Part shown: piece after piece, positions 4,928-23,284 of the stretch
Layout: each line of letters opens with the position of its first letter
Numbering within the stretch: position 1 is the first letter of the stretch
NCBI RefSeq assembly: GCF_004114975.1
Contig: NZ_CP030051.1
Coordinates: forward strand, 4,030,001-4,094,000
Direction of reading: 5' to 3'
Origin: Bradyrhizobium guangdongense
Lineage (GTDB): Bacteria > Pseudomonadota > Alphaproteobacteria > Rhizobiales > Xanthobacteraceae
DNA length: 64,000 bases
Translations under genes and position numbers: made by a program
Notes under the pieces: generated by a model
Seen by the model: only the letters and a program-made list of their open reading frames with translations
What the model was told of the DNA's origin: nothing
Databases searched by the model: none

Positions 4928-4949
4928 ACTGGCGGAAGGGGTGGGATTC
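4928..4949. repeat. attL core (22-bp direct repeat)
   Basis: The 22 bases match 23263-23284 exactly and correspond to the last part of tRNA-Ser(UGA): T-loop 3' half, T-stem, acceptor 3' strand, discriminator G, CCA and two further bases. Identity stops at 4950, which marks the crossover segment. This copy is a fragment; the full tRNA is at the other end. Confidence 0.85.
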
Positions 4950-5062
4950 AAAACAGTCTCCGCAGACATCCGAAGATGTACAAAAAGGCCTTATTTTCTC
5001 GAAGAAATTGCAAATTCGTCGTCTAGACACATCCGAAATTGTCCTCTATGTTCCAGCGCTAG

Positions 5063-5084
5063 TTTGTACGTAGAATTGTACAAA
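5063..5084. promoter_or_regulatory. Inverted repeat TTTGTAC-N8-GTACAAA before the integrase
   Basis: Arms at 5063-5069 and 5078-5084 are perfect 7-base inverses. A third copy of GTACAAA lies at 4978-4984. All sit in the AT-rich stretch between attL and the integrase start at 5099. They could be integrase arm-binding sites or an operator for integrase control. Confidence 0.4.
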
Positions 5085-5098
5085 GCCGGAGCATCACC

Positions 5099-6373
5099 GT
5101 GGCACGCGGCACAAATAAGCTCTCAGCGAAATTTATTGAACGCAAGGATCTGAAGCCCGGCCTCTACGGCGACGGCAACGGGCTCTATTTGCAAGTCAGC
5201 CCGTCCTACACAGAGGGAGATAAGCCGACCAAGAGCTGGGTCTTCCGATTCATGATCCGCGGCCGGGCTCGGAAGATGGGGCTCGGCGACATCGATCAAG
5301 TCAGCCTCAAGGACGCTCGCAAGCTGGCGCAGGCAAAGCGCCTGCTTGTTGTTGACGGCATCGACCCCATCGAGGACCGGAACGCCCGTAAGACCGCGCT
5401 GGTAGCCGAGCACGAGGCTCAGAAGGCCAAGGCAACAACCTTCCGCCAAATGGCTGAGTCCTACATCAAGGCCAACCAGGCCGGCTGGAAGAGCGCCAAA
5501 CATGGTGCTCAATGGGTGGCGACGCTGGAGACCTACGCCTATCCTACGATCGGCAACCTGCCCGTTGCTCTGGTTGATAAGAACCACGTCTTGAAAATCC
5601 TGGAGCCGATCTGGACAACCAAGACCGAAACGGCCAGCCGCGTTCGCGGACGCATCGAGAAGGTGCTCGACCGCGCCAAAGCGATGGGCCTCCGCGACGG
5701 CGAGAACCCTGCTCGGTGGACCGGCCACCTAGACCAGCTATTGCCCCGCAAATCTCAGGTGTCCCCCGTGGAGCACTTCGCTGCCCTGCCCTACAAGCAA
5801 TTGCCGGCGTTCATGGCGAAGCTTCGCAAGCGCGACGGCGTCAGCGCCCGCGCGCTTGAGTTCACCATTCTCAACGTCACGCGGACCGCCAACACGATCG
5901 GCGCCAAGTGGTCGCAGATCGACACCGAGGGAAAAACCTGGACGATTCCAGGCGAGCTGATGAAGGGCAAGAAGGGCAAGCGCCGGCCGGATCATGTAAT
6001 CCCCCTGTCTGATCGCGCCGTCGAGATCCTCGAAAACCTTCCTCGTGAGAAGGTTTTCGTTTTCCCTGGCGCCAAGGAAGGCGCTGGCATCAGCAACATG
6101 GCGATGGCGGAAACCCTCAAGGAAATGAAGGTTGATGTGACCGTGCACGGCTTCCGCTCCACGTTCAAGGATTGGGCCTCTGAGCAGACATCCTACGCTA
6201 ACGAGCTGACCGAAATGGCGATGGCTCACATTGTCAGCGACAAGACCGAGCGGGCTTATCGCCGGGGCGATCAGCGGGAGAAGCGCGTTCGTCTGATGCA
6301 GGACTGGGCGGACTACTGTGCGAGCGGCAGTTCCGTGCAGGATAACGTTGTGCCGATCAGGGTCCCGGCATGA
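5099..6373 (+). CDS. Tyrosine recombinase/integrase, P4 type
   Basis: The 424-residue protein has the N-terminal arm-binding domain of P4-type integrases (residues 1-95: LKPGLYGDGNGLYLQVSPS, WVFRF, MGLGD, LKDARKLAQAKRLL), a core-binding domain (about 110-205) and a C-terminal catalytic domain. Visible catalytic residues are R262 (TRTAN), HGFR at 350-353, H377 and Y387. It should cut and rejoin DNA at the tRNA-Ser 3' end. The start is GTG with GGAG upstream. It sits 150 bases inside attL and points into the element. The next gene overlaps its stop by 4 bases. The usual TRSGE box reads TRTAN here, a mild deviation. Confidence 0.93.
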   Translation: MARGTNKLSAKFIERKDLKPGLYGDGNGLYLQVSPSYTEGDKPTKSWVFRFMIRGRARKMGLGDIDQVSLKDARKLAQAKRLLVVDGIDPIEDRNARKTALVAEHEAQKAKATTFRQMAESYIKANQAGWKSAKHGAQWVATLETYAYPTIGNLPVALVDKNHVLKILEPIWTTKTETASRVRGRIEKVLDRAKAMGLRDGENPARWTGHLDQLLPRKSQVSPVEHFAALPYKQLPAFMAKLRKRDGVSARALEFTILNVTRTANTIGAKWSQIDTEGKTWTIPGELMKGKKGKRRPDHVIPLSDRAVEILENLPREKVFVFPGAKEGAGISNMAMAETLKEMKVDVTVHGFRSTFKDWASEQTSYANELTEMAMAHIVSDKTERAYRRGDQREKRVRLMQDWADYCASGSSVQDNVVPIRVPA

Positions 6374-6906
6374 GCAAAGAGATGATTGCCGAGATCGAGC
6401 GGTGGCGTGACAACCTGAGGGATGCCGCTAGCAGCACACTGAATGGCGGCGACGCCAGGACCGTCCGCGGTCTCTCGAAAATGCAGCGGCGCAATCCGCG
6501 CGATATTCCCGAGGCGGAACGGAGGATAATCGAGCGTGCGCGAAATCAGCTCTCCTCGCTCGACGAGTTGCTTAAGATCGCACAGTCGCTGCCGCACGAT
6601 CATCAGCGTGAGCACATGCTGCACTCATTATGGACCGCGGTCGGCGCGACGTTCGTGATCGCCAACCGAGCGCACGTAAATCCCATCGAGCAGGAGATCG
6701 TGCACAAAAGAACGGAGAAATCTCGTCAAGTTAAGAAAGTAAAAACCCATGATCCGCAAGCGGAGCGCATTAAGGCCGCGATAGCGAAGGCAGAAGAGGA
6801 AGACAAGAACAAGCCCGCTTGGGGCAAAAAGACCCGGATCGAAAATTCTGTTTCGAAGAAACTGAATATCTCCAGCAGGACCGTCCGCAGCTATTTCGGA
6901 AAATAG
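6370..6906 (+). CDS. Hypothetical protein with helix-turn-helix-like C-terminus (178 aa)
   Basis: It overlaps the integrase stop by ATGA and so is translationally coupled. The N-terminal 120 residues are helical and charged with no recognisable family. The last 35 residues (KKTRIENSVSKKLNISSRTVRSYFGK) look like a helix-turn-helix: a helix, a turn at NIS, then a recognition helix SRTVRSYF. A DNA-binding role in control of integration or the early region is plausible but inferred. No membrane segment or signal is visible. Confidence 0.7.
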   Translation: MSKEMIAEIERWRDNLRDAASSTLNGGDARTVRGLSKMQRRNPRDIPEAERRIIERARNQLSSLDELLKIAQSLPHDHQREHMLHSLWTAVGATFVIANRAHVNPIEQEIVHKRTEKSRQVKKVKTHDPQAERIKAAIAKAEEEDKNKPAWGKKTRIENSVSKKLNISSRTVRSYFGK

Positions 6907-6959
6907 CTCGGAAGCTCTGGATAGAAGGTGGCTCGATTGGCCGCCGGACATAAGCGAAA

Positions 6960-6998
6960 CCTCTGCGAACGCCGAAATTGTTCGGTTCAACGCAGAGG
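6960..6998 (+). promoter_or_regulatory. Hairpin that sequesters the alpA ribosome-binding site
   Basis: CCTCTGCG (6960-6967) pairs perfectly with CGCAGAGG (6991-6998). A nested CCGAA/TTCGG stem (6972-6976 and 6981-6985) closes a 4-base loop. The right arm contains AGAGG, the Shine-Dalgarno sequence for the ATG at 7005. When folded, the site is masked, so translation of the AlpA-like regulator could be controlled by RNA structure. Confidence 0.5.
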
Positions 6999-7004
6999 AC
7001 CAAA

Positions 7005-7202
7005 ATGTCAAAGCGATTTCTCCGCCTGCCCCAGGTCATGGAGGCAACCGGCATGCGCCGCTCGGCCATCTATGCAGGTATGGAGCATGGCGACTTCCCC
7101 AAGTCATTCCAGATCGGTACTCGGGCAGTCGCTTGGGCCGAAGACGATATTGATGCTTGGAAGCGCGCGAAACTCGAGGCCGCCGGCAAGGAGTTTGCGT
7201 AA
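7005..7202 (+). CDS. AlpA-family transcriptional regulator/excisionase-like
   Basis: The 65-residue protein begins MSKRFLRLPQVMEATGMRRS and has the winged-helix pattern of AlpA/phage regulators (LPQVMEATGMRRSAIYAGMEHGDFPKSFQIG, a turn, then VAWAEDDIDAWKRAK). AlpA proteins bind DNA near att sites and activate the integrase or early promoters of P4-like elements and satellites. ATG 7005 is preferred over an upstream start at 6978 because AGAGG lies 6 bases before it and the family starts here. The ribosome site lies in a hairpin arm (6960-6998). Confidence 0.85.
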   Translation: MSKRFLRLPQVMEATGMRRSAIYAGMEHGDFPKSFQIGTRAVAWAEDDIDAWKRAKLEAAGKEFA

Positions 7203-7205
7203 CCC

Positions 7206-7523
7206 ATGCCCTTCAAAATGCGAAACCCGGCGCTGGCGGGCACCGGGGATCGCGAGAAACTTGACCAACGGCGATCGGTCACTCGCGAAAATAGCCCCCA
7301 CGAAGTTTGTCCGCAAGATGTAATTGCGCGCATCCCGAAAAGCCGTCGTGAAGAGATTTGGCTCGCGGTTCGCCTGTTTAATGGCGTCGCCAAGCTCGAA
7401 GTTCGAATCTATAAGCTCGACGGCGAGCGCAATTGGCGACCGACCGAGCGACAGTTCGCAATCCCGAAGTCTGCTCTGCTTCCGCTGAGGGACTCACTCC
7501 TCCTGGCGGAGGCCCATCTATGA
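7206..7523 (+). CDS. PC4/p15-like single-strand DNA-binding protein (probable)
   Basis: The 105-residue protein has a disordered N-terminus of about 45 residues followed by a beta-rich block (EIWLAVRLFNGVAKLEVRIYKLDGE, RQFAIPKSALLPLRDSLLLAE). This block has the layout of the PC4/p15 coactivator fold: four strands, a basic hairpin, then a helix beginning after a Pro. Bacterial and phage PC4-like proteins bind single-stranded DNA in replication or recombination. The assignment is from pattern only. It starts 3 bases after alpA and its stop overlaps the next start (ATGA). Confidence 0.5.
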   Translation: MPFKMRNPALAGTGDREKLDQRRSVTRENSPHEVCPQDVIARIPKSRREEIWLAVRLFNGVAKLEVRIYKLDGERNWRPTERQFAIPKSALLPLRDSLLLAEAHL

Positions 7524-7834
7524 GCCGAGAACACCTCCCCAACCGCCGCCAGAACCAAACTCTCGAATTCGAGCGCGACGGCATTGGCATTCGGCTGACA
7601 CTTGGCTTCAGAGAGAACGGCGAAATCGGCGAACTCTTCTTGAACAGCGGACGGTCGGACTCGATGCTCGACGTGTTGCTGAGTGATGCCGCAATTATCG
7701 CATCACTTGCTCTGCAATTTGGCGTCCCCCTTCGGCAGATTGTGCACGCAATCAAGCGTGATCACCTCGGAGTCGCCTCCTCTCCTATCGGCGCTGCTCT
7801 TGACCGCATTTGCCCACCAGAGGTGCCGAAATGA
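7520..7834 (+). CDS. TSCPD-domain protein (ribonucleotide-reductase C-terminal-like)
   Basis: The 104-residue protein contains GEIGELFLNSGRSDSMLDVLLSDAAIIASLALQFGVPLRQIV. This is the core of the TSCPD domain seen at the C-terminus of class II ribonucleotide reductases and as a free-standing protein in phages and islands. The usual CPDC-type cysteines of the reductase version are absent; a single Cys lies near the end (RICPPE). The role of free-standing TSCPD proteins is not known. ATG 7520 overlaps the previous stop, with GGCGGAGG upstream; an earlier in-frame start at 7433 would overlap the neighbour by 90 bases. Confidence 0.65.
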   Translation: MSREHLPNRRQNQTLEFERDGIGIRLTLGFRENGEIGELFLNSGRSDSMLDVLLSDAAIIASLALQFGVPLRQIVHAIKRDHLGVASSPIGAALDRICPPEVPK

Positions 7835-8058
7835 GCAGGGCTCACTTGATGGTGTCGGATCCGAACGTCCGCACTCAGCTGCAGTTGGCCGGGCTGCGCT
7901 TCATGTGGAGTCGAGCTCGCTGGTTGGCGAGCGAGGCACATAGCATGGGCGTGGGACTGAAAAGCGGGCGGCTGACGTCCAGAGACGTCGACGCTCGGCT
8001 CGAGCAGATGGGCGCCCTCGATCTGGTGTACCCCGAACTGATGCGGGGTTACGAATGA
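7831..8058 (+). CDS. Small hypothetical element protein (75 aa)
   Basis: It starts at the ATGA overlap with the preceding gene and ends at the ATGA overlap with the RepA-like gene, so it is part of one translationally coupled early operon. The sequence is amphipathic helical (LRFMWSRARWLASEAHS, RDVDARLEQMGALDLVY). No motif is recognised. Its tight placement directly before the ATPase suggests a helper role in replication or its control, which is inference. Confidence 0.65.
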   Translation: MSRAHLMVSDPNVRTQLQLAGLRFMWSRARWLASEAHSMGVGLKSGRLTSRDVDARLEQMGALDLVYPELMRGYE

Positions 8059-9068
8059 ATGTGGAAGAGCCGGAGTGTAAGCGCCCGTTCGTCCTGTACG
8101 CGGACCTAAACGCCACAGAGAGCAAGGGCTGGTTGGTTCACAAGATGCTCGGGTCCGGCGAGCTGAGTGCCTTCTACGGTCCTCCAGGATGCGGCAAGGG
8201 CGTTATCATCCAGGATATGGCTCTCCACATCGCTGCAGGCCACGAGTGGCACGGCCGACCCGTGACGCGGGGGGCTGTGGTCTACGTCGCGCTGGAGCGC
8301 AAAAAGCTGGTCGAGCGGCGCGCGATTGCGTTTCGCAATCGGTACGGATTTGAAGATCTTCCCTTCGCTGTCGTCGGCGGCGTCTATGATTTCCGATTGC
8401 CGGCCACTGCCAGGCATCTGGCCGACATCTGCCGTCAGGTGGAAGAATTCACGACGGAGCGCGTTGTGCTGGTCATAATCGACACGGTGTCCCGCGCCCT
8501 CGCCGGGGGAGATGAAAACAGTTCCAAGGACATAGGCGGCGTGATTACTACTGTTGCACGCCTCCAAGAGCTTACCGAAGCTGCCGTACTGCTGGTCCAT
8601 CACATGCCTCATGAGGTAGAGCGCATGCGCGGCCACGGCGCCCTGCTCGGAGCCGTCGACACCACCGTCGCCGTTGCAAGATCTGGAGCGGTACGCACCG
8701 CGAAGGTCATCAAGAGCAATGATGGAGAAGAAGGCGAAGGCATAGCTTTCACAGTTGGGAGCGTACAAATCAGCCCCGACGGCACGACAGCAGCTATTGC
8801 TGTCCCGCAAGTCACAACGACCGTGGGACGCGCAACAAAGATCAGCGGCAACCCGCGGGAGCGGAGAGCCCTTCAGGCGTTGAGCGAAGCGGTGATCACC
8901 AACGGCCGGCCTGCTCCTCAGAGTTTCGGGCTGCCCGTGACCACGAACTGTGTGAGTCTGGATGAGTGGCGGCAAGAGCTACATCTCCGAGACATCATCG
9001 AAAGCACAGATAAAAACCCGCGAGCATCCTTCAAGCGCATAAAGAACGGCATGGCCGCGAAGGCATGA
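8055..9068 (+). CDS. RepA-like AAA ATPase (replicative helicase/primase-associated)
   Basis: The 337-residue protein is a RecA-fold ATPase of the AAA_25/RepA type. Walker A is GPPGCGKG at residues 42-49 and Walker B VVLVIID at 137-143. VHHMPHE-RMRGHGALLGAVD (about 181-202) is the family's sensor region. Such proteins unwind DNA or load helicase in plasmids, prophages and satellites. After residue about 245 there is a Thr/Arg-rich linker and a short C-terminal domain that could bind DNA. No separate primase domain is seen. A dense GTAGC repeat cluster begins about 40 bases downstream and could be its origin. Confidence 0.8.
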   Translation: MNVEEPECKRPFVLYADLNATESKGWLVHKMLGSGELSAFYGPPGCGKGVIIQDMALHIAAGHEWHGRPVTRGAVVYVALERKKLVERRAIAFRNRYGFEDLPFAVVGGVYDFRLPATARHLADICRQVEEFTTERVVLVIIDTVSRALAGGDENSSKDIGGVITTVARLQELTEAAVLLVHHMPHEVERMRGHGALLGAVDTTVAVARSGAVRTAKVIKSNDGEEGEGIAFTVGSVQISPDGTTAAIAVPQVTTTVGRATKISGNPRERRALQALSEAVITNGRPAPQSFGLPVTTNCVSLDEWRQELHLRDIIESTDKNPRASFKRIKNGMAAKA

Positions 9069-9106
9069 TCGGGATCCGGGAAGACATGGTTTGGGCAGCG
9101 TAGGCC

Positions 9107-9200
9107 GTAGCATGCGTAGCACCCCTAAAGGGGTGTGCTACGCTACGCTACGTAGCCCCCGTAGCAATGCTACAGAATGCTACGCTTTGCTACAGGCTAC
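9107..9200. repeat. GTAGC/GCTAC pentamer cluster with hairpin (origin or packaging-site candidate)
   Basis: Eleven copies of GTAGC or its inverse GCTAC occur in 94 bases: GTAGC at 9107, 9116, 9152 and 9161; GCTAC at 9137, 9142, 9147, 9169, 9179, 9189 and 9196. Two structures stand out. One is a hairpin of 12 pairs with a 2-base bulge (9114-9125 against 9130-9143, loop TAAA). The other is a perfect palindrome GCTACGTAGC (9147-9156). It lies between the RepA-like ATPase and the terminase, the usual place for an iteron origin or for a packaging start. No convincing gene occupies 9069-9550. Confidence 0.65.
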
Positions 9201-9550
9201 AGAGGTGTCGGGGGACGGGACCACTGCCCTGCTCCCGCGACGCATCGGCGGGCCCATCGCGACCGGAGGGCTCGCCCGCGGGGACGGCACCCGCGCCGTC
9301 CAGCGCGCGGCGTGTGATGCCAGGATCGAGATGTTCTGCATCGCGCAGGCGGATACATCATCCGCCATGGCTACCGGATTTCCTTGGACAAAACGCATTC
9401 ACGAACTAGTTACGCGCAAGCCTACGTACAAAAGAATGCTTGAGCGCAACGGTTTTTCGCGCTAGGTTCTGATCGTCGGCCATCGTGCCGGCGTGCCCAT
9501 GGCGGTCGCTGACCGAGCGGGCTTCCAACGAATGTACTGGAAGCTGAACC

Positions 9551-10162
9551 ATGGGCCGTCGTTCCCACAACTCACGCTGCAAGCTCTGCACTCATCCGGA
9601 ACGCGCCCGGATCGAGATGACGCGCCTTGCTGGCGTCGGCCTTGATGCCATCGCGGCCCAGTTCGATGTGAGCAGGGACAGCATCTGGCGACACATGAAG
9701 GACCATGTGTCCGAGGACGACAAGGCCGCGTACCTGGCCGATATCCCGCTGCAAGAACTGCTGGCCAAGGCCGCCGATGAGGGCCTCAGCCTGCTGGATT
9801 TCTTCAAGATCGTGCGGGCCACGCTGATGAAGCAATTCCAGCTGGCCGCATCGGTCAACGATCGACGGGCTGTTGCGTCTCTGGCCGGCCGGCTGAACGA
9901 GGTCTTAGTCTCGATCGGAGGCGTAACCGGTGAGATGCTGAGGCTCGCGCCCTCCTCCATCACGAATAACACCGCCGTCTTCGTTAATTCCCCCGTCTTC
10001 GCAGACCTGCAGGCCATGCTCGTAAGCAAGCTGGCTGGCCATCCTGAGGCTCTGAGCCGCGTTGTGGAGGGGCTTCAGGAGCTGGAGGCGAAGACTGCAC
10101 CCGTCCCAGGCGGCGCAATGTTGATCGACGCCAAGTCCCTGGAGGCAGCCCATGCAGCCTAG
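9551..10162 (+). CDS. Terminase small subunit candidate
   Basis: The 203-residue protein starts with a Cys/His block (CKLCTHPERARIE). A helix-turn-helix follows (VGLDAIAAQFDVSRDSIWRHMKDHVSED, about residues 28-55), and then a helical region of the type used for ring assembly. Small terminases recognise the packaging site and load the large subunit. The position directly before the large terminase, with a 11-base overlap, supports this. The CxxC near the N-terminus could bind zinc. ATG 9551 has GGAAG upstream. A plain regulator is the alternative. Confidence 0.7.
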   Translation: MGRRSHNSRCKLCTHPERARIEMTRLAGVGLDAIAAQFDVSRDSIWRHMKDHVSEDDKAAYLADIPLQELLAKAADEGLSLLDFFKIVRATLMKQFQLAASVNDRRAVASLAGRLNEVLVSIGGVTGEMLRLAPSSITNNTAVFVNSPVFADLQAMLVSKLAGHPEALSRVVEGLQELEAKTAPVPGGAMLIDAKSLEAAHAA

Positions 10163-11486
10163 CTCGGTGTATGGGCAGCTTGCCGCGGCGCTCCAGGAAA
10201 GCTGGCGCATGAAAGCGCGCCCTGAGCAGCTGCCACCTAAGGATTGGACGGGCGATGGCCGAGCTACAGGCTGGCTGGCCCTCCCCGGCAGAGGTTGGGG
10301 CAAAACTTGGGTCGGTGCGAACGTCGTCAATGAGATGGCGAATACCGTGAGCCGAATTGCCTTGATCGGCGCGACCGCGAGCGACGTGCGTGACACGATG
10401 ATCGAGGGCGAATCCGGTGTCCTGCGAACGGCACCGAACTGGTTCAGGCCGAGCTACGAGCCCTCAAAGAGGAAGCTTGAGTGGCCGAATGGCGCGACCG
10501 CCCTCGCCTTCAGCGCCGAAGAGTCAGAACGCCTCAGAGGACCGCAGTTTTCGTTCCTTTGGGGTGACGAGGCGTGCGCATGGGAAAACGCGCAGCAAAC
10601 TTGGGATATGGCGCAATTTGGCTTGCGCATCGGATCGCGTCCTCGTTGGTTGATCACAAGCACACCGCGGCCAACCAAATTCCTGCGCGATCTGCTGGCT
10701 CGTGAAGGTCACGACGTTGTCGTCAGCCGCGGAAGCACATTCGCTAACGCGAAAAACCTCGCCCCGTCCTTCCTCGAGGCCATCGAAGCGAGGTATGGCG
10801 GCACGCGCCTTGGCCGGCAGGAGATCGAGGGCGAAGTTCTCACCGACACGCCTGGTGCGTTGTGGCAGATGGACTGGCTTGATCGTGACAGGGTGTCCCG
10901 AGCACCTGAGCTTAGGCGCATCGTGGTCGCAATTGATCCAGCTATCTCAACGAACGAGGGTTCGGACGAGACTGGCATCATCGTGGTTGGTATCGGTGGC
11001 GACCGTCATGGCTACGTCCTTGAGGACCTCTCAGGCCGTTATCAACCGCACGAGTGGGCGACCATCGCAGTTGCTGCCTACAGCCGGCACAAAGCTGACC
11101 GCATCGTCGGTGAGAAGAATCAAGGCGGCGATATGGTCCAGTCGACCATACGCATGGTGGATCCAAACGTCAGCTTCAAGCCTGTGCACGCAAGCAAGGG
11201 CAAGTTCGTCCGAGCCGAACCGGTGAGCGCTCTATATGAGCAGCGGAAGGTGCACCACGTCGGCTCGTTCCCGCAGCTCGAAGATCAGCTCTGCACCTTC
11301 ACGTCGGACTTCGACCGCGGCCGGTCCGGCTACTCGCCCGACCGGCTCGATGCGTTGGTTTGGGGATTGTCCGAACTGATGGTCACGAGCCCGCCTCCGA
11401 TGACTTTCGCGCCGCCAATAGTCTTCACCAGGCCGCGCGATCCGTTTGCCGCCCCGCACCTTGCGGGCGGCCCCGAGTACAACTGA
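10152..11486 (+). CDS. Phage terminase large subunit
   Basis: The 444-residue packaging motor has an N-terminal ATPase and C-terminal nuclease. Walker A is GRGWGKT at residues 46-52 and Walker B FLWGDE at 135-140, with coupling motif ITSTPRP (about 168-174). The RNase-H-like nuclease acids are D262 (VAIDPA), E321 (GEKNQGG) and D400 (RLDALVW). All key residues are present, so it should be active. Length matches the family. The start has GGAGG upstream and overlaps the small subunit. No portal or capsid gene follows, which is unusual. Confidence 0.92.
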   Translation: MQPSSVYGQLAAALQESWRMKARPEQLPPKDWTGDGRATGWLALPGRGWGKTWVGANVVNEMANTVSRIALIGATASDVRDTMIEGESGVLRTAPNWFRPSYEPSKRKLEWPNGATALAFSAEESERLRGPQFSFLWGDEACAWENAQQTWDMAQFGLRIGSRPRWLITSTPRPTKFLRDLLAREGHDVVVSRGSTFANAKNLAPSFLEAIEARYGGTRLGRQEIEGEVLTDTPGALWQMDWLDRDRVSRAPELRRIVVAIDPAISTNEGSDETGIIVVGIGGDRHGYVLEDLSGRYQPHEWATIAVAAYSRHKADRIVGEKNQGGDMVQSTIRMVDPNVSFKPVHASKGKFVRAEPVSALYEQRKVHHVGSFPQLEDQLCTFTSDFDRGRSGYSPDRLDALVWGLSELMVTSPPPMTFAPPIVFTRPRDPFAAPHLAGGPEYN

Positions 11487-11505
11487 ATCTTTAAGGAAAA
11501 ACCCA

Positions 11506-11772
11506 ATGGCAACATTCGCAACAAACCTCACGACCCCGGCGAACGCGATCGTCAGCGCCCTCGCAACCGCATCGAGCAACGCCCAGACGCTGGCAACCAA
11601 CATCGCGCAGGGTCTTCCCGGAACTACTCTTGTCGGTCTAGCCAGCAAGAACTTGTCGCAGCTTTTCGATCAGCGTGTGGCACTCGCCAACGCCATGCAA
11701 GACTTGGCCCGCGCTCAGCAGGAATTCGTGACGATCGCAAGCAACATCGCGGCGCTCGGGACGCTGGATTGA
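11506..11772 (+). CDS. Small helical phage protein (88 aa)
   Basis: ATG 11506 has AAGGA 10 bases upstream. The protein is Ala/Thr/Asn-rich and almost wholly helical (ANAIVSALATASSNAQTLATNI, LANAMQDLARAQQEFVTIASNIAALG). It follows the large terminase and is immediately before a coiled-coil protein. A minor structural or chaperone role is plausible from context only. It is far too small to be a capsid protein. Confidence 0.7.
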   Translation: MATFATNLTTPANAIVSALATASSNAQTLATNIAQGLPGTTLVGLASKNLSQLFDQRVALANAMQDLARAQQEFVTIASNIAALGTLD

Positions 11773-15950: not shown

Positions 15951-16901
15951 ATGCGAAAGCTTCTCTTTTTAGTCGTTGCTCTAGCCGCGCTGATCGGAGG
16001 TTCGGTAAGCTCGTTCGGCGGGATGATGATGCTGGGGGTGGGCACATCATCCACGTATCAAGGACCTGGAGATATCGTTGGCGGCGCGCTGATTTGGGGA
16101 AGTTGCGCACGAGTCTACAGAGCATCACTGGCGGGTACGAGCACGTCGCTTTGCGATCTTGTGGACACGTCCACGGGAACCACGGCCGTTTGCACACTGC
16201 GCGGGTCAGCCGGCGGCTTTGTTGATCTCACGAATGCCTATTGCCCAGGATCGCTCACCCCAGCAGCTGCCTGTGCAGCGGCGGCTGGTGGCGCTTGCCG
16301 CGTCTCAAAAATCTACGATCAGATCGGTGGTACGCCGGGTTGGGCTAATGCAATAAATTCGCAGCGACCGACACTTGCATTCTCGGCGCTCAACGGTCTG
16401 CCTGGGTGGACATGCACTTCTGTGGCAAATTGTTCGTTGTCTCAGGCAAGCGTGGGTATTACGGCATCTCCGCCGTGGACGATGGTCGCGGTCGGAAAGA
16501 GAACAGCCAATTTCACTACGCTCCAACAGCTGATGGGCTTCGCCTCCGCACCAAACACGGCTCTCGGGTTTGCCGCTTCCGCCAATACGATCACGTTTAC
16601 TGAGAATGGTGCGAATACGATAACCCTGGGCTCGGTAGCTGATAGCTCGTTTCATGCCGTTCAAGCCTATGGGGATACAGGTACCGCGAGCCTTATTTCG
16701 GTGGACGGCGTTGACGGGACTCCGGGAAATGCCGGTACGCAAAGCTTTACATCTAATCTTCCTAGGCTTTCGCGCGCTGCGGGCGGCAGCAGCCTCGACG
16801 GAACGATGATGGAAGCTGGAATTTGGCCCTCTGCATTCGGGTCCACCAATCGCGGGCTCATGAACGGCAATATTCACGGCACCAACGGGTATAATTTCTG
16901 A
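15951..16901 (+). CDS. Secreted alpha-L-arabinofuranosidase B-like (ArfB) domain protein (316 aa)
   Basis: A signal peptide (residues 1-21, KLLFLVVALAALIGG) is followed by a beta-sandwich-type sequence with the opening pattern of ArfB catalytic domains: GPGDIVGGALIWGSCARVYR, then SLCDLVDTSTGTTAVCTLRG, VSKIYDQIGG. Paired cysteines occur throughout (CARVY, LCDLV, VCTLR, NAYC, AACAA, GACR). Gly/Ser/Thr-rich strands fill the second half. The enzyme activity is not established; carbohydrate-binding tail proteins can share this fold. Placed after the tail genes, it could be a receptor-binding protein or a cargo exported by the host. The signal peptide favours cargo. It overlaps the convergent neighbour by 44 bases. 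Confidence 0.55.
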   Translation: MRKLLFLVVALAALIGGSVSSFGGMMMLGVGTSSTYQGPGDIVGGALIWGSCARVYRASLAGTSTSLCDLVDTSTGTTAVCTLRGSAGGFVDLTNAYCPGSLTPAAACAAAAGGACRVSKIYDQIGGTPGWANAINSQRPTLAFSALNGLPGWTCTSVANCSLSQASVGITASPPWTMVAVGKRTANFTTLQQLMGFASAPNTALGFAASANTITFTENGANTITLGSVADSSFHAVQAYGDTGTASLISVDGVDGTPGNAGTQSFTSNLPRLSRAAGGSSLDGTMMEAGIWPSAFGSTNRGLMNGNIHGTNGYNF

Positions 16902-17496
16902 CTCGTAGTTTGCGCCGGTGACGCGCCGTCCCCAATGCAACGAAACCAAAAATCATCATCACCCAAGTGGAAGGCTCAGGGACTGGTGCAGCAATGGAAA
17001 GGCCGCTGCCCTGAAAAAAGAACTGCACTCCATTTACGTCGGCAGGAAGCGTAAACAAGAGACGTATCGGAATCGCCGGACAAACCAAGCCAGGACACAG
17101 TTCCTCATTATTATAAATGAGGTTAAGCAACGGGGGTAACGTTCCGAGCTCAGAAATATCGAACGGCGGTGTCGCCAGGCCCCCAGTCCCGTTCGTCAGC
17201 GAAAATGCTAGGGCCGTGTCTTGGTCGGTGAAGCAGCTATCGTGCTCCACACAGGGGTTAAAAGAGCGAAGGTCAAGATAGTCTGGCGACAGGTAGGCCG
17301 TTCCGAAATCGACGGTGTCACCGAATCCGACGGTATATTTTGGACTGAGAAATACAATGCCGTTGCCTCCGGTTCCGGCAACTCCATTCTGCTGAAATCC
17401 AGAGAGGGAGCTTATGTCGAAGTGCAGACTTGCAGCCTGCGCTGCGTCCGAAGAAAGGCCAAATGCGAAAGCGACGGCATAAAGAAAGAAACGCAT
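16858..17496 (-). CDS. PEP-CTERM sorted secreted protein (212 aa)
   Basis: The protein has an N-terminal signal peptide (MRFFLYAVAFAFGLSSDAAQA). A beta-rich body contains a Cys pair (NPCVEHDSCFT) and a second (LCPGLVC). The C-terminal sorting signal is PEPSTW followed by a membrane helix (VMMIFGFVALGTA) and RHRRK, the PEPxxWA-CTERM layout recognised and cleaved by exosortases. ATG 17496 is preceded by AAGGGGGG; an upstream in-frame start at 17547 adds residues before the signal. No exosortase gene lies in this window, so a host enzyme would be needed. It is an odd passenger for a phage element. Confidence 0.75.
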   Translation of the reverse strand: MRFFLYAVAFAFGLSSDAAQAASLHFDISSLSGFQQNGVAGTGGNGIVFLSPKYTVGFGDTVDFGTAYLSPDYLDLRSFNPCVEHDSCFTDQDTALAFSLTNGTGGLATPPFDISELGTLPPLLNLIYNNEELCPGLVCPAIPIRLLFTLPADVNGVQFFFQGSGLSIAAPVPEPSTWVMMIFGFVALGTARHRRKLRVRNYTRWCREYCRS

Positions 17497-17794
17497 GACA
17501 CCCCCCTTCGAAAAGGGCATTCCACCTTCCCGCCGTGGTTGAGTCAATTCGCCTGAAGTACGATTAAGAGGTTGACTCGCTCGGCTGAGCGCCCGCAGAA
17601 AGAACTCATATGAGCTCAGAGATCATCACCACGTGCATCAACTGCGTCGCGCCGGGAAGCCTCTGAGCAACTCTCATTGTGGTGGCGATGGGAGCAGTGG
17701 CAGCGGTCCAATACGAGCGCCGACAGACTCGCAACTAGCCCAGCGCAAGTAGAACCTCAGAGCACATAACGTTGCTGCGAACCGCACCCTGCCG

Positions 17795-18385
17795 TCACCA
17801 CTGAATCCGCCGCTTACCGTGCGCAATGGGCCGGGGATCCTCCCACGCGATGGCCTCTTGAATTTTTGCCGATAAGGCGGCCAAGTTCCTCAGGTCCTGA
17901 CCGAGCTGATTTTGGGTGACCTCTTGTCGGTTCATCTCATCAAAGCGAAGTGCATCCGTCGTGACCTTCGTCTTGAACACGCGGCCGCTCTCGTGCGTGT
18001 ACCAGAGCGCGTGAGCGTACTCATTTCGCTTTGCATTGATCTTCTCATATCGATCGATCACCTCGTCGAAGATGGCAGGCTTTTCGGCATGCACATGCGA
18101 GTTTTGCAGAACGGCTCGCATCGCCTGGATCTTGCTTTCAGCCATACGCATCGACCGAAATGCTTGCCGAGCAACGTCGTCTGACCTACTCGGTAGCAGG
18201 ATTAGACGACCATAGAAGATCGCTAGATGCTCTTCGACGTGGACAATCGCTGCAACGAACTGTCCTACCAGCGCGGCTATTTCTGGATTTTCGATGCCGA
18301 GCGCCCAATCACCAGCTGGAAGCTTGTCATTGTGCGGCCGCTCGCGGCCCACGCGCACGGAACCTCTAGTGCGAGGAATATTCAT
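17795..18385 (-). CDS. HEPN-like protein (196 aa), RNEYAH motif
   Basis: The protein is mostly helical. It contains KINAKRNEYAHALW, a match to the R-N-x3-H catalytic motif of HEPN RNases, placed after two long helices (SKIQAMRAVLQNSHVHAE, FDEVIDRYEK) as in that fold. HEPN proteins often act as toxins or antiphage RNases. No partner nucleotidyltransferase or obvious antitoxin is adjacent. It shares the element with a second RNxxxH protein at 19315-19863. Start ATG 18385 has only a weak ribosome site. The RNase role is inference. Confidence 0.6.
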   Translation of the reverse strand: MNIPRTRGSVRVGRERPHNDKLPAGDWALGIENPEIAALVGQFVAAIVHVEEHLAIFYGRLILLPSRSDDVARQAFRSMRMAESKIQAMRAVLQNSHVHAEKPAIFDEVIDRYEKINAKRNEYAHALWYTHESGRVFKTKVTTDALRFDEMNRQEVTQNQLGQDLRNLAALSAKIQEAIAWEDPRPIAHGKRRIQW

Positions 18386-18871
18386 GGCTTAGATCCGAAC
18401 CTCGGTGTGGCGTCATCGGATAGAAGGAGAAGGGGCTTCATACTGCCGGGCCTCGCTTCTGCCAGCTTTTCTCCTTGTTTCTTTTCCAGCGTCCCTGGCA
18501 TTCTATCTGTGATCAGCGCATCGGAATATATTGGCCCGACGGCTTTGCTTGGGGCTCGGACTTCGGGGAATTGTCCGGCGCGGCCACCGTAGCTTGCAGT
18601 ATGCGCGCCGCAATCAAACTCCCGTATTAAGCTTGATGCCTGCGCTCCGGGTTTAATCTGGAACCGACACGTCGACAAACCTCTTGCCGACTTAGGCGAC
18701 GAAGCTATATTTCGGGCAGACGCCGAATCGACCCAATCTGAGATTTGGCGCCCCCGTCCTTTTACTGTTGGGGATGGGTAGCGCGGCACCGCTTGAGGTT
18801 CGAAGACCGAGCGTGATTGGGGGCTCTTCGGACCACTCATTCCCCTATTGTCAAAAGAGGAGAAGCTCGCG
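18386..18871. other. Non-coding stretch inside the element
   Basis: Between the leftward HEPN-like gene and a rightward small gene lie 486 bases without a convincing frame. A leftward frame of about 165 codons crosses it but is Ser/Arg/Pro-rich, lacks a ribosome site and starts inside the next gene. Promoters for both flanking genes probably lie here. Confidence 0.45.
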
Positions 18872-19171
18872 ATGCGCATCGCAGCTTATAGCGGTCACGC
18901 GCCCGGTCACGTCCGCAAGACTTTTCAAGATGCATTCTTTGCAATGCTGGATTGGAGAGGCGAAGGCCCGGTGCCAATGGTCCAATTCGAAGTCGACTAC
19001 CAGCCGGAGCTCATCAGCATTGATGAGGCATGCACGCTCGTTTCGCGTTGCAGCGACATCATGCCCGGGATGATGGTCGATGAATTGGCGGAGTACGGCG
19101 GCTTGAAGAGCCGAACGTATGCCGCTGGTGCTCAGGCCATGAGGCGCTGGTTGAAGAGCTGGCAGTCTTGA
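18872..19171 (+). CDS. Small hypothetical cargo protein (99 aa)
   Basis: ATG 18872 lies 9 bases after AGGAG. The protein is soluble and mixed alpha/beta (MVQFEVDYQPELISIDEAC, MMVDELAEYGGLKSRTYAAG). No family, signal or DNA-binding motif is recognised. A TTG at 18848 would add 8 residues but has no ribosome site. It is flanked by leftward genes, so it has its own promoter. Confidence 0.55.
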   Translation: MRIAAYSGHAPGHVRKTFQDAFFAMLDWRGEGPVPMVQFEVDYQPELISIDEACTLVSRCSDIMPGMMVDELAEYGGLKSRTYAAGAQAMRRWLKSWQS

Positions 19172-19314
19172 CGCATCTCAAGGCGCAGCAGCTGAGCTCG
19201 GGCACAATCAGCGTGTAGCCGAGACAGTTTGCCGACCATGCTGTCGACGCTATGGGCTCGGGCTCGCAAGAGTCCGGGCCCTTTCGAGCACATCTAATCG
19301 ATAGCCCAGTTGGA

Positions 19315-19863
19315 TCAGTCCGAGTTGCTGTCCGCATCGGCTTCTCCAGCCAGCGGCTCTTCGCTAAGCGCCTGCTCGTATATAATTCGATCCACCCGCG
19401 CTTTCATGGCGTTGATGCAGTCAAGGGCAGCGTCTCGATATCGAGTCTGGTTATCAGTCGCAGATCTCCAGCTCGACAGTTGCCGACACAGTTTCGCGAT
19501 GTGTTCCGAGTTAAAATAGACAAAGCGGGTAGTATGAGCGAACGCGTTCCTTATGTCGGCGATCGTACGCAGGTCATTTCGAACCTCTGGTTCAATAAGG
19601 CCGAACATGTAGGCCACGTCGATTTTCGGTTTAAAGTATTTTAAGGGCCCGCCAAGTACTCGCTTGGCTTCGTTGTCAGTCAAAGGGCGCCCGCCAGCGA
19701 GCAACAGCTTTTCAAGCCAGTCCTCAACCAGCCCAGCAGTAACTAATGCGTTTCCAGCTTCCGTTTGCCGGCTGAGAATTTGGAGCAGGTCGTCTTTCGT
19801 AAACGAAGCGGAAGATCCAGTAGAGCTGTATTTCCCGGTTTCAGCCGACAACTTCTTCGTCAT
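19315..19863 (-). CDS. HEPN/MltR-like protein (182 aa), RNAFAH motif
   Basis: Residues about 85-115 read YFKPKIDVAYMFGLIE, then LRTIADIRNAFAHTTRFVYF. This matches the core of MltR-type proteins (mannitol operon repressor family), a HEPN-like helical fold, with the RNxxxH motif conserved. The C-terminal region is helical and ends in an acidic tail. MltR in enterobacteria represses mannitol uptake, but prophage-borne relatives are uncharacterised. ATG 19863 has GAGGG upstream. It precedes nothing on its strand; a ribbon-helix-helix gene lies 23 bases upstream on the same strand, so the two may form a unit. Confidence 0.65.
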   Translation of the reverse strand: MTKKLSAETGKYSSTGSSASFTKDDLLQILSRQTEAGNALVTAGLVEDWLEKLLLAGGRPLTDNEAKRVLGGPLKYFKPKIDVAYMFGLIEPEVRNDLRTIADIRNAFAHTTRFVYFNSEHIAKLCRQLSSWRSATDNQTRYRDAALDCINAMKARVDRIIYEQALSEEPLAGEADADSNSD

Positions 19864-19886
19864 CAAACCCTCGCTGAAAAACTAGA

Positions 19887-20087
19887 TTATTTCCCCCTCG
19901 CCTTCAGCCCCAGCTCCACGAGGCGGCGGATGGCTTCGGAGCGACCGGGAGCGTCTTCTTGCTTTGCTGCCCAATCGTCTACGGCCTTCCTCATCTCGGC
20001 CGACAAGCGGATGGCCGTAACCGGATCCTGGCCTGTAGCCGGCCGACCTGGGCGTTTTCGTACTACGTTTTTCTTTGACGCTACCAT
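19887..20087 (-). CDS. Ribbon-helix-helix DNA-binding protein (66 aa)
   Basis: The protein has a basic N-terminus (KKNVVRKRPGRPATG). A strand (VTAIRLS) and two helices (AEMRKAVDDWAAKQE, RSEAIRRLVELGLKA) follow: the MetJ/Arc ribbon-helix-helix fold with the usual R-L-S strand and SEAIRRL second helix. Such proteins are repressors and often antitoxins. It lies 23 bases upstream of the MltR/HEPN-like gene on the same strand, so it may repress and neutralise it; this is inference from order only. The ATG at 20087 lacks a visible ribosome site and follows an AT-rich stretch. Confidence 0.75.
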   Translation of the reverse strand: MVASKKNVVRKRPGRPATGQDPVTAIRLSAEMRKAVDDWAAKQEDAPGRSEAIRRLVELGLKARGK

Positions 20088-20185
20088 AAAAACGTATTAC
20101 ACTTATGGGGCTTGAAAAACAAGCGGCCCGCACGGCTGCGCTAACAGCAATGCAGGCCTAACCCGACCATCAGGAGTCTAATCAA

Positions 20186-20740
20186 ATGGCCAAGGCTACC
20201 GAGCGTGTTAGCACGCCACCCACAAGCGCGTCCGGAATTTCACACAACAGCAGAGACAGGGCGCTCGTAGAGGCGTTCAAACATATCGTCGTCTGTGATG
20301 ACGCAATCGACGAACTCATGCGTCGTTATGGCGATGACCACGGAGATCGCGAAGATTCCAAGAGCTGGGAGGCCCAGCGCAACGAGGACATCGAGACGCT
20401 CGTGAACACGCCAGCATCAACGGCTGAGGGGTTACGAGCGAAGGCCTCGGCGATGCAGATCCGGACGATTGCCGACAGTTACGAGGATCATGGCGGCATC
20501 GGGACTTCGCTGGCTGCAGACGTCCTGCGGACCGCACTGTTGAAGGACGGCGCCTTTGCCCTCTCTTCCGACATCTACGAGGACGTTCTGCATCTCATCG
20601 CCTTTGGCGCCGCCATCGATCGAATGGCCAGCTCGTTCCCTGCGGAAGACGACAACACGTTATTTTACACGCTCGGTGCGAAGATCATGGAGCACGCCAA
20701 GGCGATCCAAAACCGTCTGCACGCTGCCCACGAAGAGTGA
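20186..20740 (+). CDS. Hypothetical element protein (184 aa)
   Basis: ATG 20186 follows CAGGAG by 9 bases. The protein has an acidic/helical composition (VVCDDAIDELMRRYGDDHGD, IASSFP-AEDDNTLFYTLGAK) and a Ser/Thr-rich N-terminus ending at ISHNS. It is transcribed away from the ribbon-helix-helix gene and shares its 100-base promoter region with it. No motif is recognised. Similar lengths and composition occur in hypothetical prophage genes of rhizobia. Confidence 0.65.
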   Translation: MAKATERVSTPPTSASGISHNSRDRALVEAFKHIVVCDDAIDELMRRYGDDHGDREDSKSWEAQRNEDIETLVNTPASTAEGLRAKASAMQIRTIADSYEDHGGIGTSLAADVLRTALLKDGAFALSSDIYEDVLHLIAFGAAIDRMASSFPAEDDNTLFYTLGAKIMEHAKAIQNRLHAAHEE

Positions 20741-21142
20741 ACCTGCCACAGAGCAAGGTAGGTTTCCGATTCAATTCCTGAAGTGGCTTATGCACGGTGA
20801 CAGCAAAAGGCCCGCCGCTTGGCGGGCCTAAGCACTCCCAGCGCTCGAATCCGCAATTGGATCGGCAGCCGGGAGCATTGGGGGCTGGAAAGCGAGCCGT
20901 GCCATGTTCCGCCACTAATGACAATGCGTGAAACCCCGGAGTCCGGTAGTTCTCCGGAGTCCATTTTCGGAACGGGGTGTTCTACCGTGCGAACACCGGC
21001 GAGATTTAAGTACCCTCCAATTTCAAGTTGCCCGGGATGGCCGTAGCAGGGCTCGAACCACTCTGCGGCCTTTCCCTATTCTCGCTTCTCTGCTGCACAA
21101 CCAATCTAGGACACGGCGGCTCCCGCCGATTGATAATCCGAC
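20741..21142. other. Non-coding stretch inside the element
   Basis: No gene is seen. It holds a perfect 8-bp hairpin (20809-20828), two direct copies of CCGGAGTCC (near 20935 and 20953) and a short T-arm-like string near 21048 that does not belong to a complete tRNA. Confidence 0.45.
20805..20828 (-). terminator. Hairpin with T-run on the minus strand
   Basis: GGCCCGCC (20809-20816) and GGCGGGCC (20821-20828) are perfect inverses with a 4-base loop. On the minus strand the stem is followed by TTTT. No minus-strand gene is seen just upstream of it, so its client is unknown. It could also end the rightward gene at 20740. Confidence 0.4.
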
Positions 21143-21373
21143 ATGACAAAGTATTTCTTTGACATCCATGACCCCCAAGGGGACATCGTCGACGATGAAG
21201 GTGTTGAACTTTCTAGCTTGGATGATGCACGCAGGGAGGCCCGGCAAACCATTGGAGAGGCGGGGCGAACCTTGATGGCGAAGGGAGTCGACGGGCGAGT
21301 AGTGGTGCAAGTTAGGGTCCAAACAGGCCCAGTGCTGACCGTGACGGCGGCGTTCGAAACGATCGACAACTAA
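21143..21373 (+). CDS. DUF6894-type small protein (76 aa)
   Basis: The protein begins MTKYFFDIHDPQGDIVDDEG and continues with LSSLDDARREARQTIGEAGR, then VVVQVRVQTGPVLTVTAAFE. This is the DUF6894 pattern: a YFFDI strand, a D-x-E-G turn, an EAR helix and a closing V-R-D/V strand. The family is very abundant in Bradyrhizobium and has no known function. A strong terminator follows at 21502. Confidence 0.8.
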   Translation: MTKYFFDIHDPQGDIVDDEGVELSSLDDARREARQTIGEAGRTLMAKGVDGRVVVQVRVQTGPVLTVTAAFETIDN

Positions 21374-21501
21374 TGACCCCTTAGAGCACGGTGCGGGACT
21401 TCGCCATATGCCGCTTAGATGGGCTCGCCAAAACGCCTCATCTCGCATAGGTTTCTGGCGCGCTCGGTCTGCCGGGCGCAACCTACAGTCCAAACAAACT
21501 T

Positions 21502-21537
21502 ACCCGCCAATTCCCCAAGTTCGGCGGGTTTTTCTTT
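21502..21537 (+). terminator. Rho-independent terminator
   Basis: ACCCGCC (21502-21508) pairs with GGCGGGT (21523-21529); the loop is 14 bases and a T-rich tail (TTTTTCTTT) follows. It lies 130 bases after the DUF6894 gene. Confidence 0.6.
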
Positions 21538-21652
21538 GGGGGGCGCCGGTTCACGCTGGCGGGCCTAAGGCGAATCAAGCCCCCGCACGCGGTACGAAGG
21601 CCGGAGAGACGGCCCCGGCTCGCAGGGGCTTGGGGGTATGGGCCGGTGCCGC

Positions 21653-22072
21653 TCAGGAAACAAAAGGCCCCAGCTCCCGGGCAATGGGGAGAGCTAGGGC
21701 CCGCCTGCTCTGTGCGCTTTGTTGGAATGAAACGCGTCGGGGAAACGTGGAAACATCGGCAAAGTTCCCTTCATGAAGAAGGGCTTTTCGGCTCCCTAGG
21801 ATTGCCTGTTCGGTGCCATTGCTGCCGGCGACAATGCAGGACCCGCGCATGCCGCAGGCTGTGCAGACGAACCGCGGCTCGAGCTGCGAGATCCTGATCT
21901 CGTCCGGCCACCGGTCGACGTACTCGGCTGGCAGCTTGACGTTGTGGCTGCAGCGATAGTCCTGGCAGAACACCATCAGATCGCGCACACCCGTCGATCG
22001 CAGATCGCCTAGCGTGATCTTGAGCGGGCGGCCATCGGGTTCGGTGCGGTCCTTGTGTCGAGGGCGTGGCAC
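21653..22072 (-). CDS. Small zinc-ribbon-like protein with an anomalous C-terminal extension (139 aa as read)
   Basis: Residues 1-80 match a small Bradyrhizobium family: LGDLRSTGVRDLMVFCQDYRCSH, RWPDEIRISQLEPRFVCTACGMRG, with four cysteines suited to one zinc site. Usual members end soon after CG-x-RG. Here the frame runs about 60 residues further into Ser/Arg-rich sequence and over a terminator hairpin (21658-21701), so the tail is probably not native and a frameshift or deletion is likely. Start is GTG 22072. Confidence 0.6.
   Translation of the reverse strand: MPRPRHKDRTEPDGRPLKITLGDLRSTGVRDLMVFCQDYRCSHNVKLPAEYVDRWPDEIRISQLEPRFVCTACGMRGSCIVAGSNGTEQAILGSRKALLHEGNFADVSTFPRRVSFQQSAQSRRALALPIARELGPFVS
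21658..21701 (-). terminator. Terminator hairpin overlapping the 3' end of the zinc-ribbon frame
   Basis: An imperfect stem (21666-21678 against 21688-21701, containing AGCTC/GAGCT and GGCCC/GGGCC) is followed on the minus strand by TTTTGTTT. It falls inside the last codons of the leftward frame, which suggests that the true gene ended earlier. Confidence 0.5.
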
Positions 22073-22190
22073 GACGCCATCGAAGCGCGGTGCTGGCGAG
22101 AGTCAAATTGTCGATCTGTAGCGGGTCGAAGTTAGCTTAAGCTACTGCCGCTCGTGGGGGGTGGAAAGCGGCGGTTCGCGCTGGCGGCTT

Positions 22191-23027
22191 TCAATCTTCT
22201 CCCGTCAACTCGTTCCATCGTCCAACTTGTACGTCAATGTAACCGGTTGGATAGGAGCGGCCTATGAGATCGAATGCTGTGTCACCCGCGGTGTGTACGG
22301 CCAGTACTGCGGCTGCCGGCAGGGGTGAAGTCACGCGCAAGTCGAAAGCATTCTTATCGGGGATAGCCCCACGCGAGCGGGCAAAGGTCGCGATCACCGC
22401 GCGAGCGGCACTATAACCGGCATCCGCCAGCTTTACTGGTACCGCCAATTCGACAACTCGCGGTCGGCCAATGAGCGCCAAACGCGCCAACATGGCTTCA
22501 TCGCGCACGAACATCGAGGCCACCTCACCTCCCCAATACTTCGTGAGCGGATCTACACCACCATCGCGGACGTCTACCGGATGGGAAGTCATCCAAAACC
22601 GGTTAATCCTGATCTCGCGCTGCTCGCTTTGGAACGGGCTCCGCGAGTAGAGATCGCTCGCCAAGTCGTTCGTGATCGCTCCCGATGCGACAATGGCCGC
22701 CAACCTTCGCTGAAGCGATTCTGGTGTCGAGAGATGCACACCATCGCACCGCAGAGTTTCAACCTCGACGTCCGTTAGCCTGGTATAGTGCCAAGCGCGG
22801 ATCGTGCGCTGCTCCATAGTCCTCGCGAGAGCTTCAGCGAACTGCACGAAATTCTGAGCGTGTGGGTTGCCCGGGCGAACTAGCGACCGGTTACGGCCCA
22901 AATCGTGATCTAAAAAGACACACCGTTCAGATTCGAAATAGCTCAGCATCAAATCAGCATTGGCCCCGAGTCCTTGAATGAGCCTCGAATCGAAAGTGTC
23001 GGCATTCCAAACGTCGACAACTGTCAT
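22191..23027 (-). CDS. Uncharacterised protein, possibly ADP-ribosyltransferase-like (278 aa)
   Basis: Residues about 78-105 read RAWHYTRLTDVEVETLRCDG, then VHLSTPESLQRRLAA. This resembles the opening of ADP-ribosyltransferase-like folds (an H-Y-T strand, a helix, then a G-[IV]-x-[LP]-S turn). Later blocks are INRFWMTSHPV, YWGGEVASMFV and VVELAVPVKLAD. A catalytic acid cannot be assigned with confidence. It is the last gene before the tRNA, a position where satellites and prophages keep accessory or defence genes. I do not recognise a named family; the fold guess is inference. Confidence 0.5.
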   Translation of the reverse strand: MTVVDVWNADTFDSRLIQGLGANADLMLSYFESERCVFLDHDLGRNRSLVRPGNPHAQNFVQFAEALARTMEQRTIRAWHYTRLTDVEVETLRCDGVHLSTPESLQRRLAAIVASGAITNDLASDLYSRSPFQSEQREIRINRFWMTSHPVDVRDGGVDPLTKYWGGEVASMFVRDEAMLARLALIGRPRVVELAVPVKLADAGYSAARAVIATFARSRGAIPDKNAFDLRVTSPLPAAAVLAVHTAGDTAFDLIGRSYPTGYIDVQVGRWNELTGED

Positions 23028-23262
23028 CTATCCGATCCAGAAGAGGACTTCGCGAACCACGAAAAGAGCTCCGCCGAACGAATCTTGGCAAGCCCCTTCG
23101 TTGTTCCTCGCGACGGCGGGGTCACAGGATGGTGTAGGCGATGAGGCCCAGCATCATCCCCAAAATAAAACCGTGTAACGCGGCCACAGGCGTCTGCGCA
23201 TTGTACGTTCGTTTGTGCGCTGAAGGGCGCGAACAGAGATAACCTATTGATGTTATTGGAGA

Positions 23263-23284
23263 ACTGGCGGAAGGGGTGGGATTC
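23263..23284. repeat. attR core (22-bp direct repeat)
   Basis: It matches 4928-4949 exactly. Here it forms the 3' end of the intact tRNA-Ser(UGA), so integration kept the tRNA functional. Confidence 0.85.

Follow-up and report, generated by a model that had tools for sequence, protein, structure and literature searches.

Phage satellites that carry tail genes are known from Vibrio, where the phage-inducible chromosomal island-like elements (PLEs), about 18 kb in size (PMC10803314), encode a tape measure protein (TMP) and a tail assembly chaperone (TAC); satellite tail proteins are present in PLE11 particles, and deletion of tmp lowers the transduction of PLE1 and PLE4 by 96–99% (PMC12987554, 2026). 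Gram-negative phage-inducible chromosomal islands (PICIs) of the EcCICFT073 type have a specific att site, int, alpA, rep followed by the origin and sometimes terS (PMC6092414), and the capsid-forming PICIs (cf-PICIs) and MulchRoom/MiniFlayer encode TerS and TerL together with a major capsid protein and portal and borrow their tails, MiniFlayer having a fibre of its own (PMC10690885). Here we describe an 18.3-kb island at 4928–23287 of a 64,000-nt stretch of the Bradyrhizobium guangdongense genome (the window, to which all positions refer unless another locus is named), in which int, alpA, rep, iterons, terS, terL and a TMP gene lie intact between att repeats at a tRNA-Ser gene. It is probably an integrated phage satellite with a PICI-like layout, using its own packaging motor and TMP with the shell of a helper phage. 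What is new is the combination of a complete TerS and TerL plus a TMP without a capsid gene, in the Alphaproteobacteria; a satellite with TerL and TMP and no capsid was not found in the open-licence literature searched.

The borders of the island are formed by a direct repeat of the tRNA-Ser 3′ end, with an attL-like copy at 4928–4952 and an attR-like copy at 23263–23287 (24 of 25 nt identical, 22 nt exact). The integration target is tRNA-Ser(TGA) at 23265–23354 on the minus strand. As in PICIs, the att site is specific and the integrase lies at one end. Comparison with relatives at this site, which the original prediction had proposed, revealed both flanks and the tRNA gene without the island in three genomes (G018, G009 and G013; G and L numbers denote genomes and loci), where other DNA of 1.2, 3.8 and 4.5 kb, respectively, separates the matched left flank from the tRNA gene. 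At the corresponding tRNA-Ser site, G002 has an integrase-like gene of a different kind.

The core genes all lie on the plus strand. They encode a tyrosine integrase (5099–6373; Pfam Phage_int_M 6e-31, Arm-DNA-bind_3 1e-16), an AlpA-type regulator/excisionase as in PICIs (6978–7202; PF05930 2.2e-19), a RepA-like replication ATPase of the AAA_25 family (8055–9068; PF13481 2e-35, phrog_906 2e-42), TerS (9551–10162), TerL (10152–11486; Terminase_6N 4e-30, Terminase_6C 4e-18) and a TMP of 660 residues in an intact frame (13320–15302). The integrase carries R, H-x-x-R and Y, which we take to be the motifs of this family, at motif positions 261, 350 and 386. Pfam identifies the integrase, AlpA, the AAA_25 ATPase and TerL with certainty; the TerS and TMP assignments are weak by PHROG (0.18 and 4.6e-4) and are backed by homologs, TerS by the genes preceding terL in relatives (best in G012, E 3e-82) and the TMP by proteins named tape measure and by TMPs of sheath-bearing phages. 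The gene order and the few-base overlaps that had been read from the frames were both borne out, the latter at six junctions (int/g2, g6/rep, terS/terL, g10/g11, g12/g13 and g14/TMP). The dense repeat cluster is likewise real: directly after rep, at 9101–9205, there are 11 copies of GTAGC/GCTAC in 105 nt. No other stretch of this length in the 64 kb holds more than two, and 1000 first-order resamples of this intergenic sequence gave no more than four. Since these iterons adjoin rep, and the PICI origin also follows rep (PMC6092414), we presume that they form the replication origin.

The original prediction had left a satellite and a prophage that lost its head side by side. A satellite is most likely on the sequence comparisons, because the island's TerL belongs to a clade with no portal or capsid gene recognisable behind terL in the available sequence and its grouping with the TerL of a complete Bradyrhizobium phage is rejected. 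Of 265 genomes of the genus, 28 match the TerL, and 16 of these loci were fetched. Ten TerLs (G253, G270, G193, G173, G002, G175, G012, G083, G073 and Rhodoblastus L003) are 56–66% identical to that of the window (tblastn), and all others, including the best 80 IMG/VR loci, reach at most 55%. All ten come from chromosomes or contigs of metagenome-assembled genomes. With the window they form an 11-row clade (support 100/99), which was recovered with the same support in a 42-row set from which long-branch rows and the majority of the Sphingomonas rows had been removed. Grouping of the window TerL with that of the complete phage in G186 was rejected (approximately unbiased test, p-AU 4.1e-7), this pair having been chosen after inspection of the first tree.

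A head module between terL and the following genes in close relatives would have spoken for head loss. No portal is recognisable after terL in the available sequence of the ten other clade loci, by matches of large open reading frames (ORFs), by search with phage proteins or by eye, nor is a head module, contig ends cutting L003 948 bases and G073 2841 bases past terL. Where at least 1.8 kb follows terL, 58 of 61 viral loci have an ORF of ≥400 residues starting within 1200 nt, compared with 3 of the 13 loci labelled portal-less, labels that were assigned by the analyst from locus maps. The large ORFs of these three loci match a membrane fusion protein (G253), TPR proteins (G172) and, below the cut-off, a polysaccharide lyase (G083, 1.7e-5). 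Two further portal-less loci, G172 and G309, represent a second origin in the TerL tree. Pairs of terL among G193, G173, G175 and G002 give dN/dS of 0.03–0.05 at dS 0.67–0.94; three of these loci occupy the same tRNA-Arg site and were possibly inherited together.

Some other features of TerL loci were recorded. TerL appears to be split into two adjacent genes, for the ATPase and nuclease parts, in L163 (13931–15392), L166 (9078–10624) and L223 (7076–8488), and the G253 TerL has GKN in place of GKT in Walker A. Inspection by eye of 14632–16768 in L216 (G309), behind terL, suggested a gene resembling a DNA methyltransferase with a partner gene, possibly restriction cargo. In Sphingomonas loci (L006, L010, L013 and others) a related TerL is followed by what look by eye like portal and capsid genes in host-gene surroundings; such loci could represent gene transfer agents or clusters maintained by vertical descent.

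Scans of the island proteins against Pfam and PHROG gave no portal, capsid, tube, sheath or baseplate among the matches listed, in agreement with the original prediction, and the largest same-strand frame between terL and the TMP gene has 203 residues, close to the limit of about 200 that it gave. The PHROG scan at 1e-3 took in six elements (window, G081, G508, G314, G303 and G171) with 91 proteins in all, and no capsid or portal was among the matches listed, which covered 25 of 41 families; for 29 proteins of these elements left without identification, three families appeared at 0.01, one of them a 'virion structural protein' (0.0016). A phmmer search at 1e-3 compared 352 queries from the head and tail regions of phages with 2374 frames of 19 stretches. 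Of the queries, 206 were ORFs of ≥250 residues lying behind terL in viral loci and in two loci of complete phages, and the other 146 were proteins from complete-phage loci. The search matched TerL and the TMP in the window and, in G081, G508 and G171, additionally a TAC-like, Neck1-like or c6-type tail gene. TerL was the sole match in the portal-less stretches without TMP, which were covered by these queries and by reading by eye. By PHROG, Pfam and phmmer together, the window shows neither the major capsid, protease and portal of a cf-PICI nor the portal and capsid that accompany terL in a complete temperate phage.

The same core of int, AlpA-like gene, rep, terS and terL recurs between att repeats at other tRNA genes, in elements of 15–18 kb. 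In all, 12 att-bounded loci of 11.5–18.3 kb lie at tRNA genes, five without a TMP and seven with a whole or broken one, their repeats being taken as found, with no shuffle control. The five without are G193 (15,417 bp, 52-nt repeat), G002 (18,126 bp, 57 nt), G175 (15,555 bp, 54 nt), G270 (16,158 bp, 47 nt) and G083 (15,467 bp, 49 nt). The others include G081 (16,695 bp, 45 nt), G508 (14,542 bp, 45 nt) and the window (18,335 bp, 22 nt exact); G314, G088, G320 and G317 have shorter repeats of 15–19 nt at the tRNA end, which is weaker evidence. Repeats in G303, G171, G183, G243 and G298 are no longer than in shuffled controls, and no integrase is visible within the fetched stretch of G173.

TMP relatives were sought in the same 265 genomes, 17 of which match TMP alignment A1 and 22 alignment A2. 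We examined 22 loci of the genus including the window, leaving out short-frame matches in G172, G045 and G025. Five are complete phages with a sheath cluster (G186, two in G083, G070 and G053). Of the other 17 loci, 12 have an intact TMP: the window, G303, G283 (interrupted by a contig end), G171, G081, G314, G183, G243, G320, G011, G213 and G298. These twelve are heterogeneous, G183 having a portal and G213 a head protease and fibres, and the absence of tube and sheath in G243, G320, G011, G213 and G298 is judged from a lack of likeness to the other phages used here and from reading by eye.

In a TMP tree of 74 rows, ten of them labelled, the five TMPs of small elements need four label changes, at least three of them forced, and this is no fewer than with shuffled labels; the tree was built by a quick method and has long branches at L141, L245, L166 and L244. 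Monophyly of satellite TMPs had been expected and was not found. The TMP therefore moves between phages and satellites, or the elements arose more than once. As the histories of TerL and TMP differ, the element is a chimera, in which the packaging core appears to derive from a satellite-associated lineage and the TMP looks to have been acquired from phages, with whose tails it has to be compatible. A mixed history would suit a part that matches the helper's tail, and a passenger gene would look identical.

These data bear on whether the island is simply a decayed prophage, whose head, tube, sheath, baseplate and lysis genes have gone and in which TerL and TMP remain by chance. The TMP does occur in complete phages, and broken TMPs and partial sets of virion genes exist in the genus (G088, G317, G238, G236 and G027). 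Against this, the core frames of the island are intact and overlap by a few bases, the same core lies at other tRNA genes between exact att repeats of 45–57 nt, and about 19 kb separates TerL from TMP in G186, a complete prophage. The differing histories of the two genes tell against a clean loss of the head module, and the TerL clade and the recurrent core favour a satellite. We consider decay rather unlikely.

A second alternative concerns the TMP alone: int, alpA, rep, terS and terL would form a working satellite core, and the TMP block would have no function. The att-bounded relatives without a TMP agree with this, as does the mixing of satellite TMPs among those of phages, and since such relatives have the same core the TMP is dispensable for this class of element. 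Comparison of the window TMP with other TMPs gives dN/dS of 0.22–0.35, values that are rough because dS is 0.9–2. In the small family-3 loci G243, G320 and G011 the TMP shows 0.23–0.31, which argues against a passenger. Family-2 pairs that include a small element (G183, G314, G081) give 0.41–0.70, with 0.39–0.57 for phage–phage pairs of that family, suggesting weaker constraint on the family-2 TMPs of small elements. The intact frames in 12 of 17 loci, and in G508 from another genus, and the demonstrated function of the PLE TMPs (PMC12987554) also speak for a working gene, and a passenger TMP seems unlikely to us.

The dispensability of the TMP, its tree and the family-2 values count against the satellite proposed here, in which the TMP serves the particle, and so do further observations. 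Five of the 22 TMP loci carry a broken gene (those named above). No TAC, neck or scaffold-like gene was found in the window, unlike the PLEs that carry TAC with TMP; hhalign of g10–g14, g16 and the frame at 20186–20740 with a 10-row TAC alignment gave probabilities of at most 0.6%, and the lack of a detectable TAC would also suit a passenger TMP. The co-occurrence of TerL and TMP is partly ascertained, because the search was seeded with both. A diverged portal or capsid could have escaped the 352 queries, since in the control stretch from G186, where 14 frames matched, portal and capsid were matched only by their own copies. Finally, this genome has no Phage_sheath_1 match that would indicate a helper, the search being for this kind of helper, and its sole Terminase_6C match is the window TerL.

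If the satellite functions as we propose, a contractile-tailed helper would infect or be induced, and AlpA and the integrase would excise the element, which RepA would copy from the iterons. Its own TerS and TerL would then choose satellite DNA and, by way of the portal of the helper, drive it into helper procapsids. Its TMP would take the place of the helper TMP, and a chimeric tail would result as the tube, sheath and baseplate of the helper form around this TMP. This last step is proposed for the window by analogy with the PLEs, which have a contractile-tailed helper and whose TMPs are built into chimeric tails (PMC12987554). TMP and terminase could instead serve interference, poisoning the tail or the packaging of the helper to no benefit for satellite particles. 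TerL retains the Walker A/B and acidic nuclease residues that we take to define its ATPase and nuclease, and a full-length TMP would suit incorporation better than poisoning. Although there are satellites and prophages that block the assembly of tails, for example through Tai (PMC11364771) and through Rta acting on the TMP (PMC12987554), we regard interference as very unlikely here.

Among described systems, the island, known from its genes, resembles PLE1, PLE4 and PLE11 in being an integrated element of similar size with its own TMP gene, its satellite nature being deduced. It differs in having no detectable TAC gene beside the TMP gene, and the main text of PMC12987554, on the PLEs, does not contain the word 'terminase'. 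The term 'large terminase' is likewise absent from the text of PMC6092414 on Gram-negative PICIs, whereas the window has terL and a TMP. With the cf-PICIs, some of which have predicted tmp genes (PMC12987554), and with MulchRoom/MiniFlayer it shares TerS and TerL, but no major capsid or portal is recognisable in it. The earlier statement that known satellites usually lack TerL and TMP has to be corrected, as cf-PICIs have TerL and capsid genes (PMC10690885) and PLEs carry TMPs (PMC12987554). The putative RepA_N-type satellites of E. coli, att-bounded and mostly beside tRNA genes, encode a TMP without a full set of tail proteins; as the reverse of the window element, they have capsid genes and lack a terminase (PMC10448857). 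The 16.8-kb Pseudomonas satellite AH14b has integrase, AlpA-like and primase genes and uses helper capsids; unlike in the window, its authors found no terminase or structural genes (PMC4936722).

It is conceivable, and we advance it only tentatively, that such elements are 'DNA-path' satellites that own the parts touching DNA as it leaves and enters (TerS/TerL and TMP) and borrow the inert shell, with a motor inherited among satellites and a TMP swapped to match each helper tail. Relatives would own in addition a portal, Neck1, a TAC-like or a short scaffold-like protein, and TMP replacement would perhaps also evade superinfection exclusion by the helper that acts on the TMP. Satellite TMPs were first shown to be functional in Vibrio in 2026 (PMC12987554), and the alphaproteobacterial TMP elements, in the window combined with a complete terminase and no capsid gene, suggest that satellites more generally reprogram the tails of their helpers. 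For finding such satellites, a sequence handle is offered by the TerL clade, given the gap between its ten other members (56–66%) and the best 80 IMG/VR loci (≤55%).

Related small elements vary in gene content. G171 and G508 have TMP, weakly TAC-like and Neck1-like genes, and no capsid was found in them; the G508 element also has a g11 homolog, and no terL was seen there. In G171 (L166, 10561–10977) and G303 (L163, 13596–13934) a short protein similar to the C-terminal portion of a phage scaffolding protein (Pfam 3.8e-7, below the cut-off; PHROG 0.0026) is encoded directly after the split terL, with no capsid gene recognisable there; it is reminiscent of the scaffold mimics of Staphylococcus aureus pathogenicity islands (PMC12409344). 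L226 (G320, 6465–17992) has a primase, a TMP and a capsid–protease fusion (phrog_4523, 2.5e-161) with no terminase seen, a mirror image of the window element, and L224 (G243) is a similar small element. In the 20-kb stretch L225 (G213) the TMP neighbours look by eye like TAC, baseplate hub and spike, as in PLE11, and the G002 element has by eye a fibre-like ORF and an insertion sequence-like pair.

The remaining genes of the island are less readily assigned. On the plus strand, g2 (6370–6906) overlaps int by four bases and has no function assigned (Pfam none, best PHROG 0.016). Between terL and the TMP gene, also on the plus strand, g10 (11506–11772) is a small protein with a homolog in G073 (53%), and g11 (11769–12380; 203 residues, coiled-coil-like by eye) has homologs after terL in G073 and before the TMP in G508; it gave two matches in the protein collection, one being g11 itself, and a viral contig search with g11 and G073 g12 gave no relatives. 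The g12 product (12391–12816) is 50% identical over 128 residues to a G073 homolog and lacks an N-terminal part found there. No function is assigned to g13 (12813–13073; PHROG none, Pfam DUF7623 0.013, below the cut-off) or to g14 (13081–13323; Pfam none, best PHROG 0.067), which overlaps the TMP gene by four bases. Downstream, g16 (15316–15933, plus strand) is a conserved protein with no function assigned, found also in the G283 and G083 elements. An accessory region (15951–23027, both strands) encodes a PEP-CTERM protein, a ribbon-helix-helix (RHH)-like regulator and unassigned genes, and the search for defence cargo in the window gave nothing beyond a weak AbiD match (0.0065). Left of the island, at 3123–4394 on the minus strand, lies a gene for a 423-residue protein with a weak Bacillus_HBL match (0.0055, below the cut-off); the matched flank of G018 stops before it.

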